From Cloacibacterium rupense (lineage in GTDB: Bacteria > Bacteroidota > Bacteroidia > Flavobacteriales > Weeksellaceae): 64,000 nt of DNA. Location: positions 479,996 to 543,995 of the forward strand of contig NZ_BMLV01000001.1 in the NCBI RefSeq assembly GCF_014645495.1, written 5' to 3'. Each line of letters starts with the position of its first letter. The first letter of the stretch is position 1. This document shows, piece after piece, positions 22,091 to 62,178 of the stretch. The position numbers were made by a program, and so were the translations under genes. The notes below the pieces were generated by a model that was not told the DNA's origin, did no database searches, and worked only from the letters and a program-made list of their open reading frames with translations.

Positions 22091-23050
22091 TTACTTTTTT
22101 GAATTATAATACCTTAGATATTCTCTAGTTTTTATGCCAGATTCTTTTAGGTCTTCATTTTTCCAACGGCCATCTGATTTTGCAGATTTTTTAAGAATAG
22201 AACAAGTCTCGTCTTTATCAGAAACAGACCATACCACCCAACTTATACCTCTTTGCTCCATCCAATCGATGTATTCTTGCCAAGATTGATAATCCATTTT
22301 TCCATCTCCAGTAGCTTCCATCCCTGCACTTTCTGAAACAAAAATAGGCAGTCCACTTTTAATAGCTTCATCTGTTCTGTCTCGTAGCCATTTTTTATGT
22401 GTAGCTGCATAAAAATGCATGGTGTACATTAGATTTTTGTCAATCGTAATAGGATTTTTTGCAGGCAAATGCACATCTTGATCCCAAGAAGGTGAACCTA
22501 TCAGAATGATATTATCCGGGTCATTTTTTCTGATGACTTTTATAATTTCTTCAGAATAAGATTTTACTTCTGCCCAAGTTTCGTAATCTGGTTCATTAAA
22601 AATTTCGTAAATTACATTGGGATAATCGCCATATTTTTTAGAAACTTCATCAAAAAATTCTTTGGCTTCATTCAAATTAATATTGTGACTGTGCCAATCT
22701 ACAATTACGTATATTTTATTTTTGATAGCTCCATCTATTACATTAAAAACCTTTTGTTTTGCAAAATTTTTATCTGCCTTATAGTTGCCAAATTCTCCGT
22801 GTTCTACGCCTAATGCAGCACGAACTACGTTTACTTTAAAATCTTTTTTAAGCCAAGAAACTGCAGATTCATTGTAAAATCTAGGCCACATGCTATGCCA
22901 ACCAAAACTCATGCCTCTCAACATGAGATGATTTTGATTTTTATCTACCAATTGTGTGCCTTTTACAGATAACTGACCATGTTTTGCAACAAATGAAGTA
23001 CCACAAGAAATAAGCAATGATAATAAACTGATTGTGAATAACTTTTTCAT
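22091..23050 (-). CDS. GH5 endoglucanase-like lipoprotein (subfamily 2 type)
   Basis: 319 residues, lipobox SLLISC (Cys16), so cell-surface or membrane anchored. GH5 TIM barrel with acid/base Glu153 in IYEIFNEPDYE and nucleophile Glu240 in IFVSESAG. The opening GQLSVKGTQLVDKNQNHLMLRGMSFGWH-like block and VIVDWHSHN are those of bacterial GH5_2 beta-1,4-glucanases. In a mannan locus a glucanase of this kind most simply cuts glucomannan backbones, though a mannanase side activity is possible. It shares one base with the upstream GH27 stop, so the two are coupled. Last gene of the minus-strand Sus operon. Confidence 0.88.
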   Translation of the reverse strand: MKKLFTISLLSLLISCGTSFVAKHGQLSVKGTQLVDKNQNHLMLRGMSFGWHSMWPRFYNESAVSWLKKDFKVNVVRAALGVEHGEFGNYKADKNFAKQKVFNVIDGAIKNKIYVIVDWHSHNINLNEAKEFFDEVSKKYGDYPNVIYEIFNEPDYETWAEVKSYSEEIIKVIRKNDPDNIILIGSPSWDQDVHLPAKNPITIDKNLMYTMHFYAATHKKWLRDRTDEAIKSGLPIFVSESAGMEATGDGKMDYQSWQEYIDWMEQRGISWVVWSVSDKDETCSILKKSAKSDGRWKNEDLKESGIKTREYLRYYNSKK

Positions 23051-42365: not shown

Positions 42366-44636
42366 ATGAAAATCAAACTATTATTGACCTTTACCATGAT
42401 AAGTGCAATGACAAACATATACGCTCAACAAAAATTAAATCCCGAAATAGAAAAGAAAATAGACGTTTTGATGTCTAAAATGACCATAGAAGAAAAAGTA
42501 GGTCAAATGAATCAATACAATGGTTTTTGGGATGTTACTGGGCCTGCTCCAGTAGGCGGAACTGCCGAACAAAAATATGAAAATATCAAAAAAGGGTTGG
42601 TAGGCTCTATGCTCACTGTTCGTGGGGTGAAAGAAGTAAAAGCAGTACAAAAAATCGCCGTAGAACAAACCAGATTAGGCATTCCTTTAATCATAGGTTT
42701 TGATGTCATTCACGGATACAAAACTCTAAGCCCTATTCCACTTGCCGAAGCAGCCAGTTGGGATTTAAAAGCCATAGAAAAATCAGCAGAAGTAGCCGCA
42801 TCTGAAGCAGCTGCATCTGGCATCAACTGGACTTTCGGACCTATGATGGATATTTCTAGAGACGCCAGATGGGGTCGCGTGATGGAAGGAGCTGGAGAAG
42901 ACCCATATCTCGGTGGAAAAATAGCTGTTGCCAGAGTAAGAGGCTTTCAAGGAGACAACACTTTTGCATCTCCTCTCAGAATTGCAGCAACTGCTAAGCA
43001 TTTTGCAGCTTACGGTTTTGTAGGAAGTGCTTTAGAATATAACGCCGCAGAAATAGGCACCAATACTCTATATAATCAAGTTTTACCACCCTTCAAATCT
43101 GCTGTAGATGCAGGCCTTAGAAGTGTAATGACTTCATTTAACACCGTTAATGGAATTCCGGCTTCGGGAGACAAATATCTACTAAGAGATGTACTTAAAA
43201 ATAAATGGGGATTCAATGGCTTTGTGATTTCAGATTGGGCTTCTATCAGAGAAATGATTCCTTGGGGATATTCTAAAGACGAAAATGCAGCCGCTAAATC
43301 TGCCGTAGAAGCTGGTACTGATATGGATATGGAAGGCGGAATTTATGTTCCTTACTTAATTGATTTAGTAAACCAAGGAAAAGTAAAACAAGAATTTGTA
43401 GACGATGCAGTGCGTAGAATTCTTAGGGTAAAATATGAATTAGGATTATTTGATGACCCTTATCGTTTTCTTGATGAAAAAAGAGAAAAAGAAATTATTG
43501 GCAGCAAAACCAACAGAGAAACAGTTCTAGATATGGCAAAAAAATCGATTGTGCTTCTTAAAAATGACCAAAATATTTTGCCCCTCAAAAAATCAGGACA
43601 AAAAATAGCTCTTTTAGGTTCTTTAGCAGAAAGCAAAAACTCGCCGTTAGGAAGTTGGAGAATTGCTTCTGATAACAACACAGCCGTTTCTGTCTTAGAA
43701 GGATTACAACAATACAAAGGCAATGCCCTAAACTATGTAAAAGGTCTAGAACTCACCAAAACAGAACCTACTTTTTTAACCGAAGTAGAATATAATACAA
43801 CCGACAAATCTGGTTTCGAAGCAGCCAAAAAAGCCGCAAAAGAAGCTGATGTGGTGATAATGGTCTTAGGCGAACACGGATTTTCTTCTGGTGAAGCCAG
43901 AACCAGAACCAATCTAGATTTACCAGGCCTTCAACAAGAGTTTTTAGAAGAAATTTATAAAGTGAACCCAAATATTGTTTTGGTTCTAAATAATGGTCGT
44001 CCGTTAACGATTTCCTGGGCAGCAGAAAAAATACCTGCCATTGTAGAAGCTTGGCAATTGGGCACAGAAACAGGAAATGCCGTAGCACAGGTGCTTTACG
44101 GAGATTACAACCCTAGTGGTAAATTACCGATGAGTTTCCCTAGAAATCTAGGTCAAGTGCCTATTTCATACAATCATTACAGTACCGGAAGATTCACCAA
44201 CAAAGACAATAATGTATTTTGGAGTCATTATTCAGATGTAGATAAAACGCCACTCTACCCTTTTGGTTACGGTTTAAGTTATACTACTTTTGAATATTCT
44301 AACCTGAAAATCAATAAAAATTCTTTTGCCAAAGGCGAAAAAGTAGAAGTAACTGTAAATGTGAAAAATACAGGAAAGTTAACAGGAAAAGAAGTTGCAC
44401 AATTATACCTACATGATGAGTTTGCTTCTGTTGTAAGACCTGTAAAAGAACTGAAAGGTTTTGAAATGGTAGAACTAAAAGCTGGTGAAACCAAAACCAT
44501 CACTTTCACACTAACAGACGCAGAACTAGGCTTTTACAACAATCAACATGAGTTTGTAGTAGAACCTGGAACTTTCAAAATAATGGTTGGAGGCAGTTCA
44601 GATGCTGGTCTTACCTCCCAATTCGACATCAAATAA
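42366..44636 (+). CDS. Beta-glucosidase/beta-glycosidase, GH3 (BglX type)
   Basis: 756 residues: signal peptide (1-20), GH3 N-domain with nucleophile Asp290 in GFVISDWASI, C-domain with the acid/base Glu in VLGEHGFSSGEA, and a C-terminal Fn3-like domain (about 655-756). The layout and IGFDVIHGYKT match periplasmic BglX. It hydrolyses terminal beta-linked glucose from oligosaccharides. As the last gene of the mannan arm it could strip glucose from glucomannan oligomers, but it also borders the beta-glucan locus and could serve that. A shared terminator closes both. Confidence 0.93.
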   Translation: MKIKLLLTFTMISAMTNIYAQQKLNPEIEKKIDVLMSKMTIEEKVGQMNQYNGFWDVTGPAPVGGTAEQKYENIKKGLVGSMLTVRGVKEVKAVQKIAVEQTRLGIPLIIGFDVIHGYKTLSPIPLAEAASWDLKAIEKSAEVAASEAAASGINWTFGPMMDISRDARWGRVMEGAGEDPYLGGKIAVARVRGFQGDNTFASPLRIAATAKHFAAYGFVGSALEYNAAEIGTNTLYNQVLPPFKSAVDAGLRSVMTSFNTVNGIPASGDKYLLRDVLKNKWGFNGFVISDWASIREMIPWGYSKDENAAAKSAVEAGTDMDMEGGIYVPYLIDLVNQGKVKQEFVDDAVRRILRVKYELGLFDDPYRFLDEKREKEIIGSKTNRETVLDMAKKSIVLLKNDQNILPLKKSGQKIALLGSLAESKNSPLGSWRIASDNNTAVSVLEGLQQYKGNALNYVKGLELTKTEPTFLTEVEYNTTDKSGFEAAKKAAKEADVVIMVLGEHGFSSGEARTRTNLDLPGLQQEFLEEIYKVNPNIVLVLNNGRPLTISWAAEKIPAIVEAWQLGTETGNAVAQVLYGDYNPSGKLPMSFPRNLGQVPISYNHYSTGRFTNKDNNVFWSHYSDVDKTPLYPFGYGLSYTTFEYSNLKINKNSFAKGEKVEVTVNVKNTGKLTGKEVAQLYLHDEFASVVRPVKELKGFEMVELKAGETKTITFTLTDAELGFYNNQHEFVVEPGTFKIMVGGSSDAGLTSQFDIK

Positions 44637-44660: not shown

Positions 44661-44693
44661 ATCGCGGATTTTCTGTAAGTCCGCGATTTTTTA
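44661..44693. terminator. Bidirectional terminator between GH3 and regulator genes
   Basis: TCGCGGA and TCCGCGA pair perfectly around an 11-nt loop, with T6 on the plus strand and an A/T-rich flank usable on the other. It overlaps the last 3 nt of the minus-strand gene. Confidence 0.85.
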
Positions 44694-47384
44694 TTCCAAA
44701 GAATTTAAGAATTCATACAAATCTTCATCAGGAGAAAGATTTAATTTTTTCCTCAATCTAGACCTGCTTACATTAATACTAGAAGGCAATACCTGAAATA
44801 TATCTGCAATTTCTTTAGAATTAAGACCTATTTTAAGATAGGCACACATCCTTAAATCATAAATAGACAAGTTCGGAAATTTTTTCTTCATTACCTTAAA
44901 AAACTCTTGGTGCAGTTCATCCATCTGAATTTCAAACGTATGGTCTTCTATTTCTAAATAAGATTTTAGCATTCTTCTTATTTCTCCTAATTTCAATTTA
45001 GAAATATTAGGATTGCTTTCTGCTTCTAGAATTTTATCATTAATGGTTTGTAATAATCTTATTTTGTCATCATCATTTTTAGCTTTTGTAGCCAATTCTT
45101 TGGTTTTATTTTTTATTTCTTCTTTTAGAATATTCTGTTCTAGCTCTAGTTGCTTTTGCTTTTCTAAAAGAAGCTCCTGTTCGTGTTTCTCGGCTTGCTT
45201 TTTTAGAGATTTTCTTTCTTTTTCTAACAAATGTTTTTTTTGATTTTTAAGTCTTCTTTCATGAATTTGTCTCAACAAATGAATCAAAGCAAAAATCAAA
45301 ATCATATAAACCAAATAACTCCAAAAACTTCTGTACCAAGGTGCTTCTATACGGATTGCAAATTTCTGGTTTGCAGTTATTTTATCACCTTTTTTAGCTA
45401 CGATATTTAGTACATAATTTCCTTCTCTTAAGCCTAAAAATTCAATTTCATTTTTTGAAGAAAAACCACTCCACCGGTCAGAAAAGCCTTCTAAGTAATA
45501 CCGATATTGTACGTCTGACTCATTGGGCAAAACAAAAGAAAATCTGATGTTGTTAAATTGGTAAGGAATTTTGGCAGGTGTAGATAATTCTATGCTTTCT
45601 TCATTATTAAATGCTTGTACTTTTCTAAAAATTAATTCTGAAGTTAATGATTGATTAGATGATTTGTCTATCTTTTCTAGGGCAAAACCATTGCTCACAG
45701 CATAAAAAGCATACTCTGAATTTAAAGAAATCGGAAAATAAAATCCAGTCAACTTATTCTTCACATTAACCAAAGGAATAAGATTTTCCGCCATAAAATC
45801 ATTATTTTCAGGCAGATACACATATTGATGAGTACTTGTAATGATGTGAACTCCTTTTTGGTCTTTAAAAATATAAGGAAAATAGCCTTTAAATTTTTTT
45901 GTACTAAAAATAGTTTTTTTAATGGGTTTATAATTTTGGTCTATTTCAAATCGTATCACTCCATAATTAGGAATATTTACCCAAAGAATGTTCTTTTTTT
46001 CTTCTACAATTTGATTAATGGCCCCTAAAATCACTTCCATTTTTCTTTGAAAACGCCAAGAATCATTCTCTTTTTTTAAGATAGAAATTCCATTATAATT
46101 TCCTGTAAAAAGGGTATTATTATCATACTCTAAAAGGCTCATCACACCAGGTTCACTGTGAATCTTGCGAATATTTCGGCCATCTACTTCAAACAAACCA
46201 CGGTCATGACCACAGATGACTTTGTCATCTATTTTCTGTAGCGTCCAAACCTGTCCTTCAGCACCATTGATTAAGGAAAATGGATTTTGGTCCTTGCTGC
46301 TATTTAGTTCATTCCAATTGGCGGAATACAAGCCTTGGTTGGTTCCTAAATAGAAAAAATCATTCTTAAGAATTGCAGTATATCCCGTCCCAAAATCACT
46401 GTTAGAATTTTTGAAATAAGTGATGTTATTTTTAATATCAGAAAAAGCGATTCCATAATCTAAACCCATCCAAATTTTACCATTATTTTGATAGTATAAA
46501 CTTAGAATTGTATTGTTTGGAAGACCTTTATTCTTGTTGAGGTGCTGTATTATATTACCTTGATAATCTGTAATATAAATTCCATTGAGAATGGTTCCAA
46601 AAGCTAAATATCGATGATTAAAAGAGGTAAAGCTGAAGACCTTATTCTTAATGATTTCTTTAGAAATTTCAGATTGAAGTGGAGTTAGTTTTCCATCAAT
46701 CAATGTAAAAATTCCTCTATTTCTAGAAACAATACGGAGATAACCTCCATCTTCATAAATCCCAGAAATTTCTAGAGGTGCACCATAAGGATAAGAAAAA
46801 AGCAAGTGAAGATTTTGCCCATTATATTCATATAACCCATTCTTTTCATCTGCCAAAAAAAGTCTTTTACCCACCTGAAAACTATCAAAAAACCTTACTG
46901 GTGCAGCTATTTTGGTGATTTTTTGATTCACGAATCTATAGAGATTTTGATGTGAAACAAAAACGACTTGGTTCTTAAAAAGATAGGTCCCCCAGAATTC
47001 TTCGTTTACCCCTCCTATTTTGGTTTTAAAAGGATAAAAAGATTGATAATCAAATTTTCTATATTTATTTCTCTTCCATACGCCAAAATCCATATCAGCG
47101 CCTACATAAATGGTAGAATCATTTTTAATAAAAAGAGATCTGGTAAAGCCTTTGTAATCTCTATATTTATTCCATTTTTTACCATCAAATTCCAACAAAC
47201 CATTTTCTGAAGCCATATAAATCAAACCGTTTTTGGCAGCACTTATGTCCCAAATTTTACCGTGATTGCCATATTCTTCTGGTAAATAATTTCTAACAAA
47301 AGGAATTCCCTTCTCTGGAATTTCTTGAGCCTCAGAGAAAGAGAAAATAAACAGTAAAAAGTAAAAATAAAATTTAGAATTCAT
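44691..47384 (-). CDS. Sensor-regulator: beta-propeller, Y_Y_Y, one TM helix, coiled coil, LuxR-type HTH
   Basis: About 897 residues from the ATG at 47384 (MNSKFYFYFLLFIFSFSEAQ signal peptide). An earlier in-frame ATG lies inside the upstream terminator and is rejected. Periplasmic part: two-component-type propeller repeats (GLIYMASENGLLEFDGKKW and similar, about 25-560), then a Y_Y_Y-like domain (VQYRYYLEGFSDRWSGFS). A single TM helix (SYLVYMILIFALIHLL) leads to a long charged coiled coil and a C-terminal HTH (LRMCAYLKIGLNSKEIADIFQVLPSSINVSRSRLRKKL). No histidine kinase or receiver domain, so it binds ligand outside and DNA inside in one chain. Probable regulator of the adjacent beta-glucan genes. 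Confidence 0.87.
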   Translation of the reverse strand: MNSKFYFYFLLFIFSFSEAQEIPEKGIPFVRNYLPEEYGNHGKIWDISAAKNGLIYMASENGLLEFDGKKWNKYRDYKGFTRSLFIKNDSTIYVGADMDFGVWKRNKYRKFDYQSFYPFKTKIGGVNEEFWGTYLFKNQVVFVSHQNLYRFVNQKITKIAAPVRFFDSFQVGKRLFLADEKNGLYEYNGQNLHLLFSYPYGAPLEISGIYEDGGYLRIVSRNRGIFTLIDGKLTPLQSEISKEIIKNKVFSFTSFNHRYLAFGTILNGIYITDYQGNIIQHLNKNKGLPNNTILSLYYQNNGKIWMGLDYGIAFSDIKNNITYFKNSNSDFGTGYTAILKNDFFYLGTNQGLYSANWNELNSSKDQNPFSLINGAEGQVWTLQKIDDKVICGHDRGLFEVDGRNIRKIHSEPGVMSLLEYDNNTLFTGNYNGISILKKENDSWRFQRKMEVILGAINQIVEEKKNILWVNIPNYGVIRFEIDQNYKPIKKTIFSTKKFKGYFPYIFKDQKGVHIITSTHQYVYLPENNDFMAENLIPLVNVKNKLTGFYFPISLNSEYAFYAVSNGFALEKIDKSSNQSLTSELIFRKVQAFNNEESIELSTPAKIPYQFNNIRFSFVLPNESDVQYRYYLEGFSDRWSGFSSKNEIEFLGLREGNYVLNIVAKKGDKITANQKFAIRIEAPWYRSFWSYLVYMILIFALIHLLRQIHERRLKNQKKHLLEKERKSLKKQAEKHEQELLLEKQKQLELEQNILKEEIKNKTKELATKAKNDDDKIRLLQTINDKILEAESNPNISKLKLGEIRRMLKSYLEIEDHTFEIQMDELHQEFFKVMKKKFPNLSIYDLRMCAYLKIGLNSKEIADIFQVLPSSINVSRSRLRKKLNLSPDEDLYEFLNSLE

Positions 47385-47411
47385 GAGAAATCCAAATATA
47401 CAATTTTTATC

Positions 47412-47440
47412 AAAAAAAAACGCCCGTAAAATACGGACGT
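47412..47440 (-). terminator. Terminator after the T9SS-tailed 278-aa gene
   Basis: On the minus strand ACGTCCGTA/TACGGGCGT forms a 9-bp stem with one mismatch and a 3-nt loop, followed by nine T. It separates the beta-glucan gene run from the regulator and helps fix the regulator start downstream of it. Confidence 0.8.
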
Positions 47441-47467
47441 TAAAAAAAACCATAAGAAAAATACACT

Positions 47468-48304
47468 TTATTTGACAATAAACTTAGAAGATTGTACTTC
47501 GCCGTTTTCTGTTTCTGCTTTTATGATATAAACTCCTTTGGCCAAACCTTGTGAATTGATACTTTGTGCAGATACTGATTTTACTTTTTGACCAGATACA
47601 TTATAAACTTCTACCGTTTTCACTTTTGATTTGATGTAGATTTCTTCTCCCGCAGTCACCAGGTTTGGATAAATGCCCAATGATTTTTTGCTAAAAGATG
47701 CTACAGATAAGTTGGCAGGAGCAATTACAATACTTCCCTTTGCTGCTTCAGTAGTAGGATTAGCATTAATACCTCTTACAGTAAATCCCACTTGAATTAG
47801 AAGACCTGTTGCTAAACTAGATGCAGGTGCATTAATGGTAAATGTACCACTAGCTGGTATGGTAATAAAATTGTTGTAAACAGTAGCATAACCATTTGCA
47901 GGGTCTAATGCTTTGATAAAAGCTACAGCTGTATACTGATTGCTAAGCGTATTAGAAGAAACATTACCTGTAAATGTAAGATTCTGACCGTTGTATGTAG
48001 CACCTGGCTCATAATAAGTAGAAGCCTCCATTATTTTATTTCCGTTGCCTGCTCCATCAGACCAATAAGAATCTGATGCATTATATGTATTGTAATTGGG
48101 TTTTAAGGTAATGGTATTGGCAGAAGTATTAATCTCTGTTTTTAAGTCTGCTACTCCCCAACCACTACCAAACATATAATTATTAGATGTATCAAAAACA
48201 TTCATATAACCAACCCAATTAAGGCTTGCATCTGAATTAATGGTGTTTTGTGAAAAAGCAAAAACACTCATAAAAATGGTAATTAAAAAATAAAAACGTT
48301 TCAT
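47468..48304 (-). CDS. T9SS-secreted protein of unknown function in the beta-glucan locus
   Basis: 278 residues. Signal peptide MKRFYFLITIFMSVFAFSQ (1-19), one beta-rich domain (about 22-195: LNWVGYMNVFDTSNNYMFGSGWGVADL, SDSYWSDGAGNGNKIMEAS, TFTGNVSSNTL), and a T9SS type A tail (about 208-278: GIYPNLVTAGEEIYIKS... KFIVK). No catalytic motif recognised. The domain is rich in Trp, Tyr and Asn and reads like a carbohydrate-binding sandwich, but that is inference. Last gene of the GH16 run, 29 nt after GH16, so it likely binds or processes the same glucan outside the cell. Confidence 0.75.
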   Translation of the reverse strand: MKRFYFLITIFMSVFAFSQNTINSDASLNWVGYMNVFDTSNNYMFGSGWGVADLKTEINTSANTITLKPNYNTYNASDSYWSDGAGNGNKIMEASTYYEPGATYNGQNLTFTGNVSSNTLSNQYTAVAFIKALDPANGYATVYNNFITIPASGTFTINAPASSLATGLLIQVGFTVRGINANPTTEAAKGSIVIAPANLSVASFSKKSLGIYPNLVTAGEEIYIKSKVKTVEVYNVSGQKVKSVSAQSINSQGLAKGVYIIKAETENGEVQSSKFIVK

Positions 48305-48333: not shown

Positions 48334-49179
48334 TTATTTAGCGTTATAAACTCTTACATAGTCTATGTACATATTTTGAGGGAATGATGTACCATCTGTA
48401 GGAAAGCCAACGAAATTCCCTCCAACTGCAACATTTAAGATGAGAAAAAATGGATGATTGTAAACCCATTCACCTGATACATCTTTCGGGGTAACTCTAT
48501 GATACAAGAAACCATCCACAAAAAAATCTATTTGATTTTCCTTCCATTCAACCGCAAAAACATGAAAATCTTGGTCGAATCTAGAATTTTGTAAACCATA
48601 AGATTTTGTTTTTGCACTTCCTCCAGAATAGCCTGGTCCGTGCAAAGTACCGTAAACCACATTAGGAATATGCCCCTTTAGCTCCATGATGTCAATTTCA
48701 CCACAATTAGGCCAATTTACGGCGTCTATATTATCGCCCAACATCCAAAAAGCTGGCCAAATGCCCGGCCCATATGGCGTTTTTATTCTTGCTTCTATTT
48801 TACCATAGGCATGAGAAAACAATCCTTTGGTTTTAATTCTTGCCGAAGTAAAAGCAGAGCCAGAATAACTCTCTCTTTTGGCTGTAATTACCAGATTTCC
48901 ATTACCATCTAGTTTTACATTCTCTGTTCTTTTGGTATAATATTGTAATTCTTGATTCCCCCAACCATTGGTACCTGTTCCTATGTCATAAGTCCATTTG
49001 GTAGCATCTGGTAAAGTCCCTGCGCTGCCATCAAACTCATCACCCCAGACTAATTCCCAGTTTCTTTCAGGCAAAGTTTGTACTGCTTCTTCATCACATC
49101 CATACACCGAAAAAAGCAAAACACCGAAACCTGCTATCCATTTTATTTTTTGAATATATTTTTTATCTAAAATTTTCAT
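48334..49179 (-). CDS. GH16 beta-glucanase (laminarinase type), lipoprotein
   Basis: 281 residues, lipobox FSVYGC (Cys28) with acidic residues after it, so probably surface exposed. GH16 jelly-roll with the active site EIDIME (Glu161, Asp163, Glu166), the extra residue form typical of the laminarinase/licheninase-type subfamilies. Other signatures: WELVWGDEFDG, GIWPAFWMLG, GTLHGPGYSG, FHVFAVEWKENQIDFFVDG, and YIDYVRVY. It cuts beta-1,3- or mixed-linkage beta-glucan. Catalytic domain only, without CBM; binding modules are in the next gene upstream. Confidence 0.93.
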   Translation of the reverse strand: MKILDKKYIQKIKWIAGFGVLLFSVYGCDEEAVQTLPERNWELVWGDEFDGSAGTLPDATKWTYDIGTGTNGWGNQELQYYTKRTENVKLDGNGNLVITAKRESYSGSAFTSARIKTKGLFSHAYGKIEARIKTPYGPGIWPAFWMLGDNIDAVNWPNCGEIDIMELKGHIPNVVYGTLHGPGYSGGSAKTKSYGLQNSRFDQDFHVFAVEWKENQIDFFVDGFLYHRVTPKDVSGEWVYNHPFFLILNVAVGGNFVGFPTDGTSFPQNMYIDYVRVYNAK

Positions 49180-49205: not shown

Positions 49206-51089
49206 TTAATTATGGAAATAAATATTATCAAAGAAGACATCTCCATTGCCATCTACTTTAAATTGGAAAACATTAGCAAGTGCTACTGGAGAAAATGCAG
49301 ACAACGGAATATCTACACTTTTCCAACCGTTGTTATTAGTTCCTAATCCTGTAGGTACAGAAAGAGTATATGCTTTTTCTACTGGTCCTGGACTAATTAA
49401 ATAGAAATTCAAAGCAGTAGAATTAGCAGAATAATAATCGATATGTAGAAAACCATAAGAAGATACGTTGATATTACTTGCCAACTGAGTTCCTTGGTAA
49501 TTTAACCCAGCATATTTCAAGGTATTATTTCCTGAAATGGCCAATTGCGAAACTTGTGTTGCTTGTCCCCAATTAGGATTAAAATTAGTCCCAGAAAGAT
49601 TAGTGTAAGAATCACTAAAAATAGACAATACACTATTGGCAGCATGGGTAGGAGTTGGGGCTGCTGTAGTAGGTGTAGCAGAAATAATACTACCATCATT
49701 GTAGAAATAAATATTATCAGCATAGAAGTTAGTAATATTAGTTCCTACAAAAATAACTTGCCCTATGTGTGCTTTGGTGGTTAAACCTGTAAAAGCAGTA
49801 ATTGGTAAATTAAGACTTACCCATTTTTGGCCTTGCAATGTAGGCGCTGTTATGGTAGTTTCACCTGTTTTATCATCACCTCCGCCAAATGCACCATTGG
49901 CACCAAAATCTACAACTTGAATTTTAAAATTAGCTCCTGCAGGCAATGCATTAGGCAAATAGATATCTAAGTGTAAATGAGACATTGAAGATACATTAAT
50001 GGTTGGTGAACTCATTTGTATTCCTACAAAATTAAAATTGGTATAATTCAAAACATGGTCACCATCTACTTGAAAATCTGCCGATTGAGTGGTTTGGTAT
50101 GGTGCCCAATACCCATTATAATAGTCTACAGGTACATTGGTATATTGATCGCTAAATAATGAAATCACCTTATCTGCTGGCTGTGTAGGGGTAGGTGCAT
50201 GAGTATAGGTGCCATTAGAGTTGATAATGAGACTTCCTTTTGCACTGTTATTTCCTAAAGTTGCTGTAATGGTAGAAGTTCCAGCACCTATGGTGCTTAC
50301 ATTACCCACTGCATCTACAGTAGCTACTGATGAATTAGAGCTAGAAAAATTAAAGTAATATGGAGTGAGATTTACAGCTTGTGAAGTACCATTCGGCATA
50401 CTAAAGCTAGCCGTTAAACCATCTACTACATTATTTACCCCCACAAAAGAAGTTATGGTTTTATTTGCCCCATTTTGTATGGTTGAAGACTCATTAGAAA
50501 TTGTTCCTAGTTTTTCGAATTTTACTTCGTCTATCCAAAATGTATATCCTTTATTATTTTCTGGCCCTTCAGAATAGAAAAACATTCCTCTTTCCATGGT
50601 AAGTTTAGAAGCATCAGGAATCGGAATAATCACTTTTTTCCAATTGGTATTTACTGCAACTCCTGAAAGGGATACTTGATATTTATTTTCACCCAAATCA
50701 TTTCCAAAACCTAAAACATCAATGTTAGCAGATTGAGTAGCTTTTATCCAAAACGTTAAAGCATTATAATCAGATAAATCTCTTCCTACAGTGGTAAAGA
50801 AAGTTCCACCAGCATAGGCTCCTTCTGGACTGCCATAATCTGGAACAGCAATTTTCATAGAAGTTGTTCCAGAATATTTTACTTGGGTATCTACATCAAA
50901 TGCTTTCACATCTGAGCCACCAAATGCGGCATAATTAAGGCCAGAGCTGAAAGTGTCTATAAAAACCTCAGGATTTTTAGAATAAGTAGCTTGTTCTAGC
51001 TCACTGATGTCTCTTTGGCAGCCAAACACCATTAGTAATGAAAGTGCTAATAATGGCTTTATAAATATATGTTGAATTGTGTTTTTCAT
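49206..51089 (-). CDS. Multi-module surface glycan-binding lipoprotein
   Basis: 627 residues, lipobox LMVFGC (Cys24). Modules: a CBM-like sandwich (about 38-195, NTNWKKVIIPIPDAS... FWIDEVKFEKLG), a BIG2-type Ig domain (about 205-295, STIGAGTSTITATLGNNSA), and two similar sandwiches (about 310-475 and 485-627), each starting ISLFSDQYTN / LSIFSDSYTN and ending FYADNIYFYN / FFDNIYFHN. The last two are a tandem duplication. TPTQPADK/TPTHAANS linkers resemble those of SusE/F-like proteins. No enzyme motif. Between the TIM/beta-barrel fusion and GH16, so it probably holds beta-glucan at the cell surface. Confidence 0.85.
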   Translation of the reverse strand: MKNTIQHIFIKPLLALSLLMVFGCQRDISELEQATYSKNPEVFIDTFSSGLNYAAFGGSDVKAFDVDTQVKYSGTTSMKIAVPDYGSPEGAYAGGTFFTTVGRDLSDYNALTFWIKATQSANIDVLGFGNDLGENKYQVSLSGVAVNTNWKKVIIPIPDASKLTMERGMFFYSEGPENNKGYTFWIDEVKFEKLGTISNESSTIQNGANKTITSFVGVNNVVDGLTASFSMPNGTSQAVNLTPYYFNFSSSNSSVATVDAVGNVSTIGAGTSTITATLGNNSAKGSLIINSNGTYTHAPTPTQPADKVISLFSDQYTNVPVDYYNGYWAPYQTTQSADFQVDGDHVLNYTNFNFVGIQMSSPTINVSSMSHLHLDIYLPNALPAGANFKIQVVDFGANGAFGGGDDKTGETTITAPTLQGQKWVSLNLPITAFTGLTTKAHIGQVIFVGTNITNFYADNIYFYNDGSIISATPTTAAPTPTHAANSVLSIFSDSYTNLSGTNFNPNWGQATQVSQLAISGNNTLKYAGLNYQGTQLASNINVSSYGFLHIDYYSANSTALNFYLISPGPVEKAYTLSVPTGLGTNNNGWKSVDIPLSAFSPVALANVFQFKVDGNGDVFFDNIYFHN

Positions 51090-51100
51090 CTCTCTTAAAA

Positions 51101-54100
51101 TTATTTACCAATGTTAATTTGAATATAAGTTCTTATTTCCCACTCATTTCCATTTGGGAACCCAATTGCAGTTGGGTCTGGCACCCAATTTCCTGCTGCA
51201 TCTATGGTATAGGTTGGTGCATACCTAGGCGAGTATTGGTCTAAGGTTCTATAGGTACCTCTAATTCCTATTCTTGTTCCTGGCAAAATCCACCATTCTG
51301 GTTTCCCTATTTCGAAAGATAAATCCCCTATCAATTGCATTGGGAAAGTCAAATTGTAATCTCTATGATAATCATATGGCCCCCAATCATTAAATTTAAT
51401 ACTCGAAATAAATTTCATTTTTTTATAGATGGTTCTTACATCTAGACCGAATCTTTCTATCGTTCTGGCATCACTACCGTTCGCTTGCGCAGTACCACCA
51501 TACATATTGGCAATCACTCCGAAATCATTACTTATTTTAGAAACAATTCTGGTATTTACTTCCCATAGGTCTTTTGCAGGTGCAGCTCCAGGGAAAGCAA
51601 AAGTAGTTCTACCATCTGGCAAAATACCTATGGCTGCATCTTGCGTAGTAGGCAAATGTCTGTACACAAATCCTGCACTGATGGCAAATTTGGCATCTTC
51701 GGTTTTATCACTGTCCCAACTGTACATCCATGTAGCGGGTGTTGGGTCATAAGTAAATAATATTTCCCCGGCGGTTTGTTCTCTATTAGCTCTTACTACA
51801 AATGGGTCTTCTAAAATATTTCTAGGTCTTCCTGGTGCCGGTGCTCCAAAAGGAACTGGCCCTTCAATAGGTTTTTGCCATAAGAAATTAGGTGCAATTT
51901 GTAAATTGCCGATGTTGTAGGTGAAACCTGTCAAGAAATTATACTGGTTGCCACTTCCGCTGTCTTTTAGTCTCCATCCTGTAAAAGTCTGGGTATTATC
52001 TGCGCCACCGTTGGCCACCAATCCCATAGCAGCACCTTGTGCATACCAATTGAATTTTCCGCCTGCGTAGGTAAATTTCACTTTACCTCCCCAATTGTCT
52101 TTATTATTAATTTGGTCTTGATATACATTGCCATCTCTGTACAGTTGGAAATCTCTTCCGTTGAGTGGCTGACCAGCCCAAATTCCACCTAAATCAAATG
52201 CAAATTTGCCTAGTTTTCTCTGTATGGCTAAAGTTACTCTTCGGGTTTGTGGTTGAGGGATAGCAAATGAACTTTGGGTAGTTCCTCTTTGGTCTAAGTC
52301 TTCGTGATAAACTCCTGTAACATCGAATTTCCCTACTTTTTTAGAATACTTAACCAATACTGCTGGGTTAGCTCCCCACCATAGTTCTGGTCCGAATGCT
52401 ACTTTTAGTCCATTGATGGCTTTCTTACCAGCGAATTCAAAACCAAAAGGCGCTTCACCATTATAAATGTCGATGTTTGGTCCATAATTGGCTTCTGGAT
52501 ACAATCCGAAAATATCTCCTTCATATCCCCAATGGTAATGGCCAGTTCTGTAGAATCCATTCAAATCAAACCACTTTTCATTCCACTGGTAGCTCGCACT
52601 GTAAATTTGAACTCTATTGATGTCTTGCAATTTGGTAGTTGTACCGTCTGCATTCATTACCTCTATTGGTCTTCCTCTGTTTTCATAGAAAATTTGGTCT
52701 ATAGGATTTTCTGCCACATTTCCTAAAATGTTTACATTGACATTGGCTCTCATATTAGAAGTAGGATTGGCTTCTACACCAATGTAATAAGACTGAGTAT
52801 GGTCAAAACCTTGTTTGGTAGGGTAAGAAGTATACCCATCTGTTTTATCTTTTGGAGTGGTAATAAGGCTGCCTCCTGTATTGAAAGTATAGAATTCTGC
52901 CCTTAGATTGCTAATTTTTAATTTATCGTTGCTTTCTCCTTTTAGAGCAGCTTTATCTCCTCTAGCTCTCAGTTGTGCATCTGCAACATTGATATCATTA
53001 AAATAGTTTTTAACAGTATTAGGCGTAATTAATTTAGAAGAATCATAAGGATTGAATTGGTGAACTTGTTTCAAAGCATAGTAAGCAGATCGTGGGTATT
53101 CTTGATACAAACCATTGGCATCAGGCGCGCCTTTAGCACAAATCCCAAACCATTCTTCGTTCATGTTATTCTCTCCTTTTTCATAATCTTTAATGTAGCC
53201 TCCGTTGCTCCAAGAAGCATTTGCATCATGCACGTCTAGATTTTCGTTTTGTTTGTACTTCCACCAGCCATCACTAAACTGGAAGGTAAATCCACCGATA
53301 GAATTATTGGCTTTACCCATTCCTGCTGCATTTTCATAGATTTCTTGCCAATTTCCGAGTAAGTAATAGGTTTGTGCATCTTGGTCTTCTTTGCCTGTAA
53401 TTTCATTGAAAGCATCAGCACCAAATTCTGTAAACATCAACGGTTTTCCATATTCATTTTTCACACGCAAAAAAGCATCACCAAAGGATACTCCTCTGTA
53501 CATATTGGTTCCATAGATGTCTATATCTTTACATTCTTTGGCAATGATGTCTAGAAACAATAAATCTCCATTACACATGGCAATAGGATGGTTTTGATCT
53601 ATAGATTTCATCTCTAGTGCAGCCTCATTGAATAATTGGTACATGGCCTCAGCTCTATGCGTAGATTTTCTTTCTTCTACGGGTATATTTTCAGTCTCTG
53701 CTCCATCCCAAAACAATCCATAGTTATTCTCATTACCTAGAAGATACATTAATAATCCTGGGGTATTTTTGTATTGCTGTGTAAGTTGCTTTACTTCGTT
53801 TAAGAGGTGTGCTCTGGTATCTGCATTGGCATAATCTGTATTAGGAATCCAAGTTCCTTTAATGGTTAAACCATATCTACCAAAAGAATGATTGAGCATG
53901 GTGTATATACCATAATTCTGATAAATGTAAGTTATCCATTTAGCCGGAATACCTGTGTAAACCCTTATGGCATTTACGCCCATATTTTTGAGCAATGACA
54001 TCTGACTGTCTAATGCAGATTTTATGAAATCATCTTTTTGATTCCATAAAGAGTAATTATAATTGGTACCAATAGGATAATAATCCCAATTCATTCCGTT

Positions 54101-54229
54101 AATGATAAATGGCTTACCATCAACCAAAAGTTTTTGTCCGCTCGAATTGTTTTCAATTCTTACGTTTTCTGTCTGTGCAAAAAATAAATTGGTAATTAAA
54201 CAAATAAAAATTATTGCATATTTTTTCAT
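51101..54229 (-). CDS. Clan-A-like glycosidase fused to a C-terminal outer-membrane beta-barrel
   Basis: 1042 residues. Signal peptide 1-19. Residues 30-395 form a TIM-barrel glycosidase of the GH2/GH5 clan type: GQKLLVDGKPFIINGMNWDY, GVNAIRVYTG, acid/base Glu167 in LLGNENNYGLFW, and nucleophile Glu268 in MFTEFGADAFN. After a linker (about 396-435) the last 600 residues are alternating amphipathic strands rich in Trp, Tyr and Gly with short polar turns (RRVTLAIQRKLGKFAFDLGG, KVKFTYAGGKFNWYAQG, RTYIQINIGK at the end), reading as a large outer-membrane barrel. No TonB plug is visible. It heads the GH16 run. Exact GH family and glucan specificity are not determinable here. Confidence 0.8.
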   Translation of the reverse strand: MKKYAIIFICLITNLFFAQTENVRIENNSSGQKLLVDGKPFIINGMNWDYYPIGTNYNYSLWNQKDDFIKSALDSQMSLLKNMGVNAIRVYTGIPAKWITYIYQNYGIYTMLNHSFGRYGLTIKGTWIPNTDYANADTRAHLLNEVKQLTQQYKNTPGLLMYLLGNENNYGLFWDGAETENIPVEERKSTHRAEAMYQLFNEAALEMKSIDQNHPIAMCNGDLLFLDIIAKECKDIDIYGTNMYRGVSFGDAFLRVKNEYGKPLMFTEFGADAFNEITGKEDQDAQTYYLLGNWQEIYENAAGMGKANNSIGGFTFQFSDGWWKYKQNENLDVHDANASWSNGGYIKDYEKGENNMNEEWFGICAKGAPDANGLYQEYPRSAYYALKQVHQFNPYDSSKLITPNTVKNYFNDINVADAQLRARGDKAALKGESNDKLKISNLRAEFYTFNTGGSLITTPKDKTDGYTSYPTKQGFDHTQSYYIGVEANPTSNMRANVNVNILGNVAENPIDQIFYENRGRPIEVMNADGTTTKLQDINRVQIYSASYQWNEKWFDLNGFYRTGHYHWGYEGDIFGLYPEANYGPNIDIYNGEAPFGFEFAGKKAINGLKVAFGPELWWGANPAVLVKYSKKVGKFDVTGVYHEDLDQRGTTQSSFAIPQPQTRRVTLAIQRKLGKFAFDLGGIWAGQPLNGRDFQLYRDGNVYQDQINNKDNWGGKVKFTYAGGKFNWYAQGAAMGLVANGGADNTQTFTGWRLKDSGSGNQYNFLTGFTYNIGNLQIAPNFLWQKPIEGPVPFGAPAPGRPRNILEDPFVVRANREQTAGEILFTYDPTPATWMYSWDSDKTEDAKFAISAGFVYRHLPTTQDAAIGILPDGRTTFAFPGAAPAKDLWEVNTRIVSKISNDFGVIANMYGGTAQANGSDARTIERFGLDVRTIYKKMKFISSIKFNDWGPYDYHRDYNLTFPMQLIGDLSFEIGKPEWWILPGTRIGIRGTYRTLDQYSPRYAPTYTIDAAGNWVPDPTAIGFPNGNEWEIRTYIQINIGK

Positions 54230-57776: not shown

Positions 57777-59795
57777 ATGAGAAAAATACTATTTTTCACC
57801 TTATTTTTTACGTCATTCATATACAGCCAAATAATTTCTACTGGTGTTCCTCAAGCTATGAAAGCCACTACTGGTGTAGGGCTCCATAAAAATAAAATAT
57901 GGTGGATCAATTGGGATGTGAATAATGACAAATTGTCTTGGGATAATCTCATTAATTCTGGTGGTGTAAACACTACTTTTGTATCCCCTGCAGGATTTAC
58001 CTACAGCATTTCAATTACCAATGTTAGAGTATACAACAGCGCAGGAACTGAAATTACCTCAGGAACCAATAGAGTTCTCAATTCTTCCAAAACTACGAGT
58101 TGGAGTGGTAACAATATGCCAACAGCATATGCAGGATTTCCTACAGATGATATCATTGCCATCAACCAAAAAAATGAAACCAATGGAGCTGGAGATGGAA
58201 ACAGAGTCACCTTTAGGCTTACAGTAACTGCTGTAGACCCTTTTGGTGTATCTGGCAATGCCACCGGATTAGTTATTGGTGGTTCAGAATCCCTAGCAGG
58301 TACCAATGAGTGGTATACCATCTCTACACCGACAGGCAGAATAAGATTGATTGATAAATATATTAGAAATGATGCTTGGGCCAACTTCGCAGTACAATTA
58401 CAAGTTTCTAATGCTGGAAAAACCGTAAAGGCAACCAACCATTTAGGTGGAGATAGCAGAGGCGATGTTATTTTATTTGCAGAAGATGTACCCTATATCG
58501 ATTGTGAACTAAAAGGTGGTGGCGGACAAAGTATTGCCTTAGGTTTTCTAGAAGAATTAGATTATTCAGATGCTCCTGCCTCTTATGGTAGAGCTTTTCA
58601 CGTTTTTGAAAATAAATTCTCAGGGGGGCTTTTTAGTGATGGCAACACCAATCTTAACATCGCTTCTAATTCTGCAGACTTTATCTCTCCCACAGGACAA
58701 TTGGCTAAAATAAGCGACCCTACCCTTAGATTGGGAGCAGATATAGACTCAGAAGACATACCTACTCTTCCTGCTGCTGGTGCTAACCCCAATGTAGATG
58801 ACCTAAATGGCCAAGATGATGAAGATGCACTCCCTGCTACAACTGCCAATTTGAATGGCTATTTTGGTATTAATTATGTTAATATATCCCCTCTCACTTC
58901 ATATCTTTCTTTATGGATTGATAAAAATAGAAATGGCACTTTCGATGCTAACGAAAAAGTAAGCAATACCATTCCTCCTAATAAAACAGGAATTGCCATA
59001 TTTGATATTACTTCACTATCTATTCCTACTGGCACTAATTATTATGCTAGAATAAGATACAGCAGTAGAGCCAACTTAGGCCCTACAGGTTTTGCTCCTG
59101 ATGGTGAAGTAGAAGACCATTTCATTAACATCGTAAACAACTTATACAGCATTTTGGGTACCGTATTTCAAGACAATAATTCCGGGGTCCCAGATGGTAT
59201 TCCAATAGACAATATTACTGTTCAACTTCTTAATTCTACGGGTACTGTCATCAGTACTACAACTACCAATTACAACGGAGCTTATATCTTTTCAGGATTA
59301 CCTAATGGCAACTACAGCATAAGAGTAGTATTGCCTACAACACCTAGCTATCAACATGTATCTTCTACAGATTCTACTCCTACAGACGGCATTACAGCAG
59401 TAACTATTACCAGTGCTAATAGAACTGCTATTAATTTTGGACTATATTTTGATAAATGTTTCAAAACGTCACCTACTACTTCTGGCGGATTACCTACCCA
59501 AAATGGAATTACAGCATTATCTAGAGCAGGCAATGATGGCGATGGCAATACTGCTAATGACTGGCCTATGGTACGAAAAGCAGCATGGACTGCTCTTGAG
59601 GCCAAGACCAAAGGCTTTGTAATCAACAGAGTGGCTGCCAATTTTGAAGCACCCTTAGATGATGGCCAAGTCCCATCCATTCCGAACCCCGTCAAAGGAA
59701 TGATGATTTATGATACTACCAACCAATGTCTAAAAATCTATACAGGAACTACCTGGAAATGTTTCTCCTCACAAAGTTGCCCTGTTGTTAATTAA
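57777..59795 (+). CDS. Secreted GEVED/SdrD-B-domain protein with shared C-terminal module
   Basis: 672 residues, function unknown. Signal peptide 1-18; an N-terminal beta domain with an all-beta pattern (about 20-270); a GEVED domain (about 330-455: DDLNGQDDEDALP, LSLWIDKNRNGTFDANEKV, PDGEVEDHFINI); an SdrD-B/Cna-B-like domain (about 458-558: LGTVFQDNNSGVPDG, NYNGAYIFSGLPNGNYSIRV); and a C-terminal module (560-672) that recurs in the 604-aa protein downstream. Such architecture is typical of surface or matrix proteins. No T9SS tail of the usual kind, so the shared C-terminal module may be a structural or anchoring part; this is inference. The next gene starts 13 nt after the stop. Confidence 0.8.
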   Translation: MRKILFFTLFFTSFIYSQIISTGVPQAMKATTGVGLHKNKIWWINWDVNNDKLSWDNLINSGGVNTTFVSPAGFTYSISITNVRVYNSAGTEITSGTNRVLNSSKTTSWSGNNMPTAYAGFPTDDIIAINQKNETNGAGDGNRVTFRLTVTAVDPFGVSGNATGLVIGGSESLAGTNEWYTISTPTGRIRLIDKYIRNDAWANFAVQLQVSNAGKTVKATNHLGGDSRGDVILFAEDVPYIDCELKGGGGQSIALGFLEELDYSDAPASYGRAFHVFENKFSGGLFSDGNTNLNIASNSADFISPTGQLAKISDPTLRLGADIDSEDIPTLPAAGANPNVDDLNGQDDEDALPATTANLNGYFGINYVNISPLTSYLSLWIDKNRNGTFDANEKVSNTIPPNKTGIAIFDITSLSIPTGTNYYARIRYSSRANLGPTGFAPDGEVEDHFINIVNNLYSILGTVFQDNNSGVPDGIPIDNITVQLLNSTGTVISTTTTNYNGAYIFSGLPNGNYSIRVVLPTTPSYQHVSSTDSTPTDGITAVTITSANRTAINFGLYFDKCFKTSPTTSGGLPTQNGITALSRAGNDGDGNTANDWPMVRKAAWTALEAKTKGFVINRVAANFEAPLDDGQVPSIPNPVKGMMIYDTTNQCLKIYTGTTWKCFSSQSCPVVN

Positions 59796-60363: not shown

Positions 60364-62178
60364 ATGAAAAAACTTCTCCTTTTAATCAGTCTATTGCTTA
60401 TCATTCCAAGCTATCTTTTTTCGCAATCAGCGAATGAAGTAACAGAAGTTTATACCGATTTTAATGGATTTTGGAGCAGCAGTACCACTGCCAATAGCCC
60501 AATTAGACCCAATAACAATCATAATCTTTTGGCGATTAAATGGAAAGGAAATATTGTTTCTACAGGTGTAAATGACGCTATATTAACCAGCAATGGGGTT
60601 TCATTCACTCCCAGAGTATTTAATGCTTTGCCTGTCAATACCATCCCTCTTGCTAATAGCTCTACCTACATAGGGGTGGGCTTTCAGTTCGGAGGCCCAG
60701 GTAATGCCACCGTTCCTGTACCTCCTGTCAACAATAACTTAGGCAGATACCTTGTTGACGGAACTAATGGTCTAAATCTAGGAACTGCTGTTTTTAATCT
60801 ACCTGCTTCATCCGAAATTAGCTTTGTGATTACCAGTATCAATCCCGCTAGAATTGGTGATGATGCTCCAGATTTTATCATTACCCAAACCGGCCAACCC
60901 GCTGGGGCTAATGATACTTTTAGATTGGTCGATATCAACAATAATCCTGTGGGGAATCCTATTACTGTAAATTTTAATACGGTTAGTGTTGTTGGTAGAC
61001 AAAGCTGGAAGTTCTATCAAGCCAATGTCACCCCTCCTACTTTTGTGTCTAGCTTAACTGGAGAAAGAGAACTTAGAATTCTTGGATTTGACTGGAGTGA
61101 TTTCGGATTAAACGCTACCAACTACACCCAAGTGGCCCGTTTCATTCAAGTCTTTTCTGGAGGTAGTGATTCTGCTTTTACCGCCTACAACCAAAGTTCT
61201 ATGACGGTGTATCAATCTATATCTGGCTCAGTATTCAATGATAATGATGGTGGTGTACCTAATGGAAACGGATACGGAAATGCCACTGTTGAACTTTTAG
61301 ATGCTAGCAATAATATTGTAGATACTACTGTAACCAATGCTATTGGAGCTTATGTTTTCCCCAACATTCCTCCTGGTAATTATACTGTGAGGCTGGTAGT
61401 TCCCAGTGGTTTTTTTGTGGTTGGCAATGCAGAAGGAAATACCAACAATACCCTCTCTGCCAATATATCACTAACTGCGGGTGCTACACTTCGTAATTTT
61501 GGTATCAACCAACCTCCTGTTACCAATAATGACAATATTACCACCACATTCAATACACCTGTTAATTTTAATATTTTATCCAATGACGCTGACCCTAATT
61601 CGGGAACTATTATTGCATCATCTGTTAACCTTAGTACCCCTCCTGGTGCTACTGCAATAGTAACAGACGGCACTGGTAATGTAAAAGGGTTTACACTTGC
61701 TGCTCAAGGCACTTGGTTAGTCAATGCCTCTGGCATTCTTACCTTTACTCCTACTACTGGCTTCAGCGGAAATACCACTACCATAACTTACACCGTAAAA
61801 GACAATGCAGGACTCACCAGTAATGCAGCCAATATCAATATTACGGTATTTCCTTATTGCTTTAAAACTCCTCCTTCTACTACTGGAGGATTACCTACTG
61901 AAATAGGAATGACCGCTTTAGGAAGAGCTGGCAATGATGGTGACGGCAATACCGCCAATGATTGGCCTATGGTAAGAAAAGGTGCTTGGACTGCCCTAGA
62001 AGCAAAAACCAAAGGATTTGTAATCAATAGATTAAGCAGCGCCCAGATTGCTGCCATTCCAGCCGCTAACAGGGTCAAAGGAATGATGGTCTATGATACC
62101 ACCAATAAATGCCTTAGCATCTATAACGGCACTTCATGGCAATGCTTCAGTACTCAAACCTGCCCAACAGTGAATTAA
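60364..62178 (+). CDS. Secreted SdrD-B/CshA-like protein with shared C-terminal module
   Basis: 604 residues, function unknown. Signal peptide about 1-20; N-terminal beta domain (about 25-280); SdrD-B/Cna-B-like domain (about 282-385: ISGSVFNDNDGGVPNGNGYG, IGAYVFPNIPPGNYTVRL); a CshA-type fibril-like domain (about 386-495: NNDNITTTFNTPVNFNILSNDADPN-type opening, TFTPTTGFSGNTTTITYTVKDNAG); and the C-terminal module (498-604) seen also in the 672-aa protein. In that module the proteins agree almost fully over GNDGDGNTANDWPMVRK and ALEAKTKGFVINR while the codons differ. Last gene of the operon; no strong terminator, and a heptamer tandem array starts 7 nt after the stop. Confidence 0.8.
   Translation: MKKLLLLISLLLIIPSYLFSQSANEVTEVYTDFNGFWSSSTTANSPIRPNNNHNLLAIKWKGNIVSTGVNDAILTSNGVSFTPRVFNALPVNTIPLANSSTYIGVGFQFGGPGNATVPVPPVNNNLGRYLVDGTNGLNLGTAVFNLPASSEISFVITSINPARIGDDAPDFIITQTGQPAGANDTFRLVDINNNPVGNPITVNFNTVSVVGRQSWKFYQANVTPPTFVSSLTGERELRILGFDWSDFGLNATNYTQVARFIQVFSGGSDSAFTAYNQSSMTVYQSISGSVFNDNDGGVPNGNGYGNATVELLDASNNIVDTTVTNAIGAYVFPNIPPGNYTVRLVVPSGFFVVGNAEGNTNNTLSANISLTAGATLRNFGINQPPVTNNDNITTTFNTPVNFNILSNDADPNSGTIIASSVNLSTPPGATAIVTDGTGNVKGFTLAAQGTWLVNASGILTFTPTTGFSGNTTTITYTVKDNAGLTSNAANINITVFPYCFKTPPSTTGGLPTEIGMTALGRAGNDGDGNTANDWPMVRKGAWTALEAKTKGFVINRLSSAQIAAIPAANRVKGMMVYDTTNKCLSIYNGTSWQCFSTQTCPTVN

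Follow-up and report, generated by a model that had tools for sequence, protein, structure and literature searches.

Laminarin-type gene clusters of Bacteroidota have been described in several forms. The laminarin polysaccharide utilization locus (PUL) of Muricauda comprises 'GH2', GH16, GH149, GH17, GH30_1 and major facilitator superfamily (MFS) genes (PMC13188888), and marine laminarin PULs include arrangements such as GH149-GH0-GH17-GH16_3-GH30_1 (PMC10108472). Bacteroidetes GH149 genes map to PULs and also to clusters of carbohydrate-active enzymes (CAZymes) without susCD-like pairs (PMC5827456). Laminarin-type clusters without susCD are noted in that paper and in a second one, and the available parts of both name no outer-membrane importer for those of Bacteroidota (PMC5827456; PMC10811738). 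Here, we describe a gene at positions 51101-54229 of a 64,000-nucleotide stretch of Cloacibacterium rupense DNA (contig NZ_BMLV01000001.1, positions 479,996 to 543,995; the window), which encodes a glycosidase followed in the same chain by a predicted outer-membrane beta-barrel. The loci that carry this fusion have the same partners, in a similar order, as the GH149 clusters, the Muricauda 'GH2' PUL and the marine 'GH0' PULs, for which the barrel half goes unmentioned in the parts available. Judged from the described partners and gene order, the published 'GH2' and 'GH0' genes probably belong to this enzyme family, whether fused or not.

SusC/SusD importers resemble the fusion locus in combining an outer-membrane barrel with an adjacent surface-type lipoprotein and a surface glycoside hydrolase (GH), and the fusion system differs from them in that no plug was found, the lipoprotein has no SusD-family match and the enzyme is covalently attached. 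Another comparison is offered by FbGH17b, an MFS-GH17 protein of a Formosa laminarin PUL, where a transporter and a beta-1,3-glucan enzyme of the same pathway are likewise joined in one chain; FbGH17b belongs to the inner membrane, has an MFS fold and carries its GH17 after the transporter, as opposed to a beta-barrel with the enzyme in front (PMC6246565). An MFS carrier fused to GH17 was also seen in the same or sister loci of L029, L035 and L173; the first two hold this inner-membrane fusion together with the enzyme-barrel fusion, and L173 holds MFS-GH17 only. The proposed pathway contains a second transporter-enzyme fusion built on this principle, placed at the inner membrane. A search of the literature on such fusions and on laminarin loci with or without SusCD, from which subscription journals and preprints were mostly absent, found no description of an enzyme-barrel fusion.

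Architecture and distribution of the fusion

The open reading frame lies on the minus strand and encodes 1042 amino acids. It begins with a signal peptide of the SPI type (residues 1-19, 54173..54229, ending in ...LFFAQ; type and cleavage judged by eye), which forms a helix in the model, and continues with a TIM-barrel glycosidase domain (residues 30-395, 53045..54142), assigned from PF02836 and from fold matches to GH158 structures in the PDB. A helical linker follows (residues 396-436, 52922..53044, with model helices at 403-411 and 415-430), and the rest is a predicted outer-membrane beta-barrel of about 24 strands (residues 437-1040, 51110..52921), which is based on AlphaFold2, Foldseek, loop/turn parity and amphipathicity. 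When the full protein was modelled with AlphaFold2 from 64 sequences, the result was a TIM barrel and, after it, some 24 long strands (pLDDT 74.4, pTM 0.60). A sequence-only reading of this gene had proposed a glycosidase and an outer-membrane barrel on one chain without a TonB plug; the models, Foldseek and a conserved catalytic Glu pair bear out the fusion, with the barrel as a prediction, and no family match to a plug was obtained from Pfam for the whole protein or from NCBIfam for the barrel half. The only Pfam family matched by the protein at E ≤0.1 was PF02836 (GH2 TIM barrel; residues 33-281, E 1.1e-7; 31.8 bits, with the cut-off at 21), and NCBIfam gave no match to the whole protein (E ≤0.1) or to the barrel half (E ≤1).

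The fusion is real and widespread, while its barrel fold is predicted. An enzyme-only query (E 1e-20) matched 43 of 395 genomes of the phylum, of which 33 carry the fusion (the window's own and the contig-end copy of G470 included), nine have the enzyme alone (one of them, in G593, with its start cut) and one, G499, holds a broken copy. With the barrel alone as query, matches were obtained in 29 of 296 phylum genomes, all of them within frames of 1028-1084 residues save for two fragments, in G499 and at the contig end of G470; apart from these fragments of broken or contig-cut copies no free-standing barrel was found in the 296 genomes, and the barrel was rejected as a stand-alone family. In a sample of the class, 23 of 295 genomes were matched, comprising 13 fusions at ≥61% identity (own genome included), one enzyme alone at 56% (G069) and nine distant partial matches, and within the genus the fusion was present in 3/7 genomes, own included. 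From named genome records, 524 matching stretches were obtained and 80 kept, with record titles of Flavobacteriia, Chitinophagia, Saprospiria, Bacteroidales, Balneolia and one Thermoanaerobaculia. The start of the fusion under the last title (L098) is by eye very like that of Saprospiraceae locus L083, and the contig is probably mis-binned. Persicobacter has a 62.6% identical copy. In the gut bacterium Bacteroides finegoldii, a 61% identical copy lies with lipoprotein, GH16 and BglX (GH3) genes and carries no annotation beyond 'glycoside hydrolase family 2 TIM barrel-domain containing protein'; the gene table for the 27 kb around it, which is incomplete, shows no SusC/SusD. The record concerned (L209, NZ_OY725931.1), titled 'plasmid 29', has valine tRNA ligase and rpsA and looks like a chromosome piece.

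Enzyme domain

The sequence-only reading had named a clan-A-type active site, with Glu167 in GNENN and Glu268 in TEFG. Both residues were found in these motifs (53729-53731 and 53426-53428), and N166, E167, N242 and E268 are identical in 64/64 aligned sequences, so that neither Glu varies among the homologues compared. This alignment holds the window protein and 63 of the 80 retained loci; L096, L105 and L098, which has X residues, were left out, as were 14 loci that we chose to omit for their closeness to others. Of the 80 loci, 78 read without a stop, the exceptions being L096 and L105. A fold search with the full model returned GH158 structures first (9p26, 9oro and 6pal), including BuGH158 and GH158(Pro) with laminaritetraose, and then GH2 enzymes. 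When the PDB was searched with the family profile built from the 64 sequences, BuGH158 and GH158(Pro) were matched again, with weak scores (E 1.3e-4 and 1.3e-3), and the libraries scanned showed no GH158 model. In the profile alignment, E167 and E268 fall on E137 and E220 of BuGH158, and N166 on N136 (the numbering being matched by a hand-counted, constant shift of 22). BuGH158 is an endo-beta-1,3-glucanase for which E137 and E220 have been reported as essential (PMC7157763). The GH158 proteins are thus like the fusion in being its best fold matches, in their aligned catalytic pair and in their beta-1,3-glucan loci, and unlike it in that the sequence match is very weak (about 15% identity in the fold alignment, beside the better of the two E values above) and in that their PDB chains are of about 400 residues without a barrel.

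As judged from alignment and model, the putative acid/base Glu follows an Asn on TIM strand 4 and the putative nucleophile Glu lies on strand 7, the arrangement of the retaining glycosidases of clan GH-A. In GH2 proteins, sugar-binding-like and Ig-like domains precede the TIM barrel. The TIM domain here scores above the Pfam cut-off for the GH2 family, but GH2 proper was rejected, as these domains are absent, the TIM barrel starts at about residue 30 and only PF02836 is matched. On the GH158 fold matches and the aligned, invariant Glu pair, the enzyme is best placed in clan GH-A, in a family of its own or at the edge of GH158, and it probably acts on beta-1,3-glucan. Glucan had also been the target suggested by the sequence-only reading, and the beta-1,3-glucan gene neighbours described below support it.

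The predicted barrel

The last 645 residues, modelled alone with AlphaFold2 from 77 sequences, gave a pLDDT of 77.5 and a pTM of 0.75; the alignment comprised 76 of the 80 loci, without L096, L098, L105 and L113, and the corresponding part of the window protein. All 50 listed PDB matches of this model in Foldseek are outer-membrane proteins, among them TonB receptors, MOMP, Occ porins, the FimD usher, OmpF and 4q35, an entry titled only 'membrane protein' which we take to be LptD. The class of the barrel as an outer-membrane protein is therefore clear in the model and its subfamily is not, as TM-scores are low. Stacked soluble beta-sandwiches, the alternative fold considered for this half, are ruled out by the same 50 listed matches. 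In a library of viral folds only weak phage matches were found, with porin-like ones ranked first, and no sequence relative of the barrel was found in the PDB up to E 1.

In the barrel model 24 strands were counted, as selected from DSSP by the analyst. The connections after odd strands (mean 23, median 25.5 residues) are longer than those after even strands (mean 5.5, median 3; Mann-Whitney p 1.5e-4), and this parity is independent of eight short DSSP strands omitted from the list, since these sit in pairs inside four connections. The strand amphipathicity of 2.67 exceeds that of all 2000 shuffles (mean 1.54, maximum 2.45), and the chain enters and exits the barrel on the short-turn side. The prediction therefore has the features expected of an outer-membrane barrel, namely amphipathic strands in even number, long loops alternating with short turns, and both ends on what would be the periplasmic side. 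About 41 residues separate the enzyme from the first strand, which leaves no room for a TonB plug.

The barrel of the SusC family has 22 strands, and the C-terminal barrel of classical autotransporters has 12. With about 24 predicted strands, no NCBIfam match, no sequence match in the PDB and a general fold likeness only, the barrel departs from the SusC type, and the N-terminal plug and TonB box of TonB-dependent transporters had no counterpart among the family matches; identity with a TonB receptor or SusC was rejected on the missing plug and family match. The strand number departs likewise from that of autotransporters (type V), for which there was no Pfam match.

Loops are usually the most variable part of outer-membrane proteins. 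Conservation as measured within this protein family alone is 3.27 bits in the predicted extracellular loops, 3.40 at lumen-facing and 3.02 at lipid-facing positions, against 3.34 in the enzyme, and the loop and lumen positions conserved at ≥95% include 25 aromatic (His included) and 47 charged residues. This pattern favours a functional pore, or else a docking surface under conservation, over a mere anchor.

Side of the membrane

In known outer-membrane barrels, the periplasmic side is the one that has the short turns and both ends of the chain. Since both ends of the predicted barrel are on the short-turn side, the enzyme should sit in the periplasm and not on the surface. The enzyme is probably periplasmic, and the cutting at the outer-membrane surface proposed by the sequence-only reading probably has the wrong side, as the signals of barrel-less relatives also suggest. 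For lipoproteins of Bacteroidota, the minimal surface-export signal is a positive or polar residue followed by two acidic ones, directly behind the lipid-bearing Cys (PMC5080379). A looser rule, at least two acidic residues at +2..+6 after the lipobox Cys, was used here, with counts that include near-duplicate loci and a regular expression that misses some genes, such as L176. Lipobox genes met this rule in 64/80 cases for GH16, 75/106 for the lipoprotein group (139 genes in the scan, related ones elsewhere in the loci included), 6/6 for PKD and 6/8 for SusD, and in 3/61 for GH17, 4/33 for GH30, 0/7 for GH3 and 1/5 for the enzyme without barrel. Only one of 122 fusion proteins (L054) has a lipobox-like start. 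By eye, the barrel-less L176 has one acidic residue after the Cys, and L172, L173 and L175 have ordinary secreted signal peptides; the free enzymes thus look periplasmic, in agreement with the predicted barrel topology.

Locus composition and changes of barrel state

Among relatives, 86 fusion loci have ≥5 kb on both sides, with identical C-terminal 300 residues counted once. With truncated flanks, and with families sought by BLAST from a small number of sequences, the counts are minimum values; GH149 was assigned through a match to PDB 6hq6, and GH17 and GH30 through Pfam. A lipoprotein family is present in all 86 loci, GH16 in 85, GH149 in 66, GH17 in 57, an MFS carrier in 50 and GH30 in 49. 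SusC was found in six and SusD in five, so that 80/86 have neither in the fetched flanks and lack the susC/susD pair beside CAZymes that marks a canonical PUL. In 110 of 111 loci the gene directly downstream of the fusion belongs to the lipoprotein family (in the remaining one, L194, such a gene lies upstream); of the 11 barrel-less entries, which include L179 (start cut by the contig) and L180 (frame broken), none has it as the next downstream gene. L180, from G499, has enzyme and barrel parts in separate frames, as in a decaying gene or an assembly error. In L198, L199 and L204, which come from genomes without a SusD match and have the GH16-MFS version of the locus, an extra gene lies between lipoprotein and GH16; that of L199 was scanned as a ROK-family repressor, and those of the other two start alike by eye.

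A maximum-likelihood tree was built for a subset of loci, with 56 fusions (window included) and nine barrel-less rows, L179 and L180 being omitted; enzyme-only copies with both ends are 422-479 residues long. The barrel state requires ≥6 changes on this tree, all forced by well-supported branches. Because the enzyme-only rows nest among fusions, losses are the natural and simplest reading of these changes; their direction is inferred, as the five outgroup rows gave no clean root and the branches of L178 and L040 are long. Presence of the lipoprotein gene agrees with the barrel state in 6/6 independent pairs (sign test p 0.031), which is support, and not proof, of functional coupling. Replacement of the barrel by SusCD in barrel-less loci was also considered; SusC/D occurs in 2/5 of these loci as opposed to 6/86 (Fisher p 0.06), a suggestive difference that the tree does not support, and it is not claimed. 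Two more barrel-less loci, which fall outside the five owing to short flanks, also have SusC (L176 and L177), and L176 has SusD.

A proposed importer and its alternatives

With somewhat better than even confidence, we propose that the fusion forms an enzyme-bearing outer-membrane conduit, which together with the lipoprotein replaces SusCD and imports and cleaves beta-1,3-glucan, with the enzyme at the periplasmic end. A surface GH16 lipoprotein would cut the glucan, and the adjacent surface lipoprotein, with its CBM-like domains, may bind the pieces and partner the barrel in the way that SusD partners SusC. The plug-less barrel of about 24 strands would pass oligosaccharides across the outer membrane, and the TIM-barrel enzyme at its periplasmic end would cut or trim them as they emerge. 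Such trimming at the exit might act as a ratchet, keeping an inward gradient that draws more in and prevents back-leakage. The pathway would be completed in most relatives by GH17/GH30 in the periplasm, an MFS carrier of the inner membrane and the GH149 phosphorylase; in the window's genome, where GH149 and GH17 gave no match in searches run without a positive control, GH3 probably takes this part. A more specific version, in which uptake by a SusCD-independent, plug-less importer with a built-in glycosidase at its exit is made one-way by hydrolysis and not by TonB energy, with the surface lipoprotein as its SusD-like partner, is offered tentatively, at rather less than even confidence.

The choice between pore and anchor, which the sequence-only reading had left undecided, leans to a pore on the conserved predicted loops, the joint change with the lipoprotein gene and the mostly SusCD-free loci. 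A barrel that serves only to keep the enzyme at the periplasmic side of the outer membrane and to dock the surface lipoprotein in a cross-membrane complex, with no passage of sugar, seems unlikely to us: docking would explain the joint change with the lipoprotein gene just as well, and position may matter in a family whose barrel-less enzymes look soluble or lipid-anchored, but a lipid anchor would then suffice, and a barrel of 604 residues whose lumen and loops are conserved to roughly the same degree as the enzyme, in loci of which 80/86 are without SusC/D, suggests more. Display of the enzyme outside the cell, through its own barrel or otherwise, is a still weaker candidate; the N-terminal passenger, helical linker and C-terminal barrel do follow the classical autotransporter order, but the predicted strand number is about twice that of autotransporters, the loop/turn parity puts both ends in the periplasm and the barrel-less relatives are mostly without a surface-export signal. 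That the barrel serves another cargo or envelope function, its fusion to a glucan enzyme being historical, is very improbable. Its function cannot be predicted from homology, for want of a PDB sequence relative, but the barrel never occurs apart from the enzyme in the 296 genomes, the two fragments aside, and nearly all loci have GH16. We see hardly any likelihood in a catalytically idle TIM domain that acts as a sugar-binding plug or lid; its place in the chain is that of a TonB plug, but the catalytic Glu pair and surrounding residues are invariant, and barrel-less copies persist as free enzymes, directly before GH149 in 7/9 unbroken, uncut cases.

Several observations weigh against the proposed importer. 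The GH16 gene after the lipoprotein is also missing from enzyme-only loci, and as the barrel, lipoprotein and GH16 genes are contiguous, their joint loss could reflect one deletion per lineage; on the tree, barrel loss and SusC/D presence show no association (median p 0.5), and fusion and SusC/D stand side by side in L032, L039, L184, L188 and L197. Foldseek TM-scores are 0.22-0.36 by query and 0.25-0.43 by target, which, with moderate model confidence, makes strand number and barrel closure uncertain. Of the nine barrel-less relatives whose start is complete, one (L174) carries two acidic residues behind its lipobox Cys. BuGH158, the closest relative with a known structure, is treated among the cell-surface glycosidases, a point in favour of surface display (PMC7157763). 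Points on both sides come from 36 chosen genomes, 27 with the fusion (the window's included) and nine with a barrel-less copy. In favour of the importer, SusD, sought with the single family model PF07980, gave no match in 5/27 fusion genomes (G339, G351, G415, G470 and G517); three of these, G339 (1e-59), G351 (3e-35) and G517 (1e-27), also have the poorest top SusC matches of all fusion genomes, and their loci still hold fusion, lipoprotein, GH16 and MFS genes. Against it, a SusC model matched all 36 genomes at E ≤0.001, and 33 above its cut-off, so other TonB receptors could import; G415 and G470 are among those with SusC matches above the cut-off. There was no PF07980 match in the barrel-less G505 either, a genome in which import can therefore take another route.

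The enzyme-barrel family offers a candidate outer-membrane importer for laminarin-type clusters free of susCD, with algal, fungal or cereal sugar chains as possible glucan sources. If the proposal is true, predictions of glucan uptake from SusCD genes alone miss a part, and the 'GH2/GH0' label conceals a membrane protein.

The locus of the window and its surroundings

Downstream of the fusion gene, four genes follow on the minus strand after gaps of 11, 26, 29 and 14 bases. The partner lipoprotein (49206..51089, 627 aa) has weak CBM11/CBM30-like domains below Pfam cut-offs and the sequence CQRDISE, acidic after the lipobox Cys, and the GH16 lipoprotein (48334..49179; PF00722, E 6e-26) has CDEEA after its lipobox, a surface-type signal. 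Next are a 278-aa protein with a type IX secretion sorting tail (47468..48304; PF18962, TIGR04183) and a sensor/regulator (44691..47453), which matches Y_Y_Y above the cut-off and Reg_prop and GerE (LuxR-like HTH) just below theirs. A convergent GH3 beta-glucosidase gene lies on the plus strand (42366..44636; PF00933/PF01915). The Bacteroidota -7 element is TANNTTTG, and scans for this motif and for sigma-70 promoters gave no excess over shuffles. No SusC/SusD adjoins the glucan operon; the window has two SusC/SusD sets, at about 0-3.5 kb and 25.4-30.0 kb.

By eye, positions 1-42344 form a run of plant-polysaccharide genes, with presumed pectin-type genes and a SusC/SusD set up to about 21.5 kb; beyond this come a SusC/SusD set accompanied by GH5 (22091-23050, matched by Pfam Cellulase) and what is presumably a mannan-like cluster with an MFS carrier. 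On the other side of the fusion gene, two neighbouring secreted proteins (57777-59795 and 60364-62178) share a nearly identical C-terminal stretch (GNDGDGNTANDWPMVRK..WTALEAKTKGFVINR...CFS).

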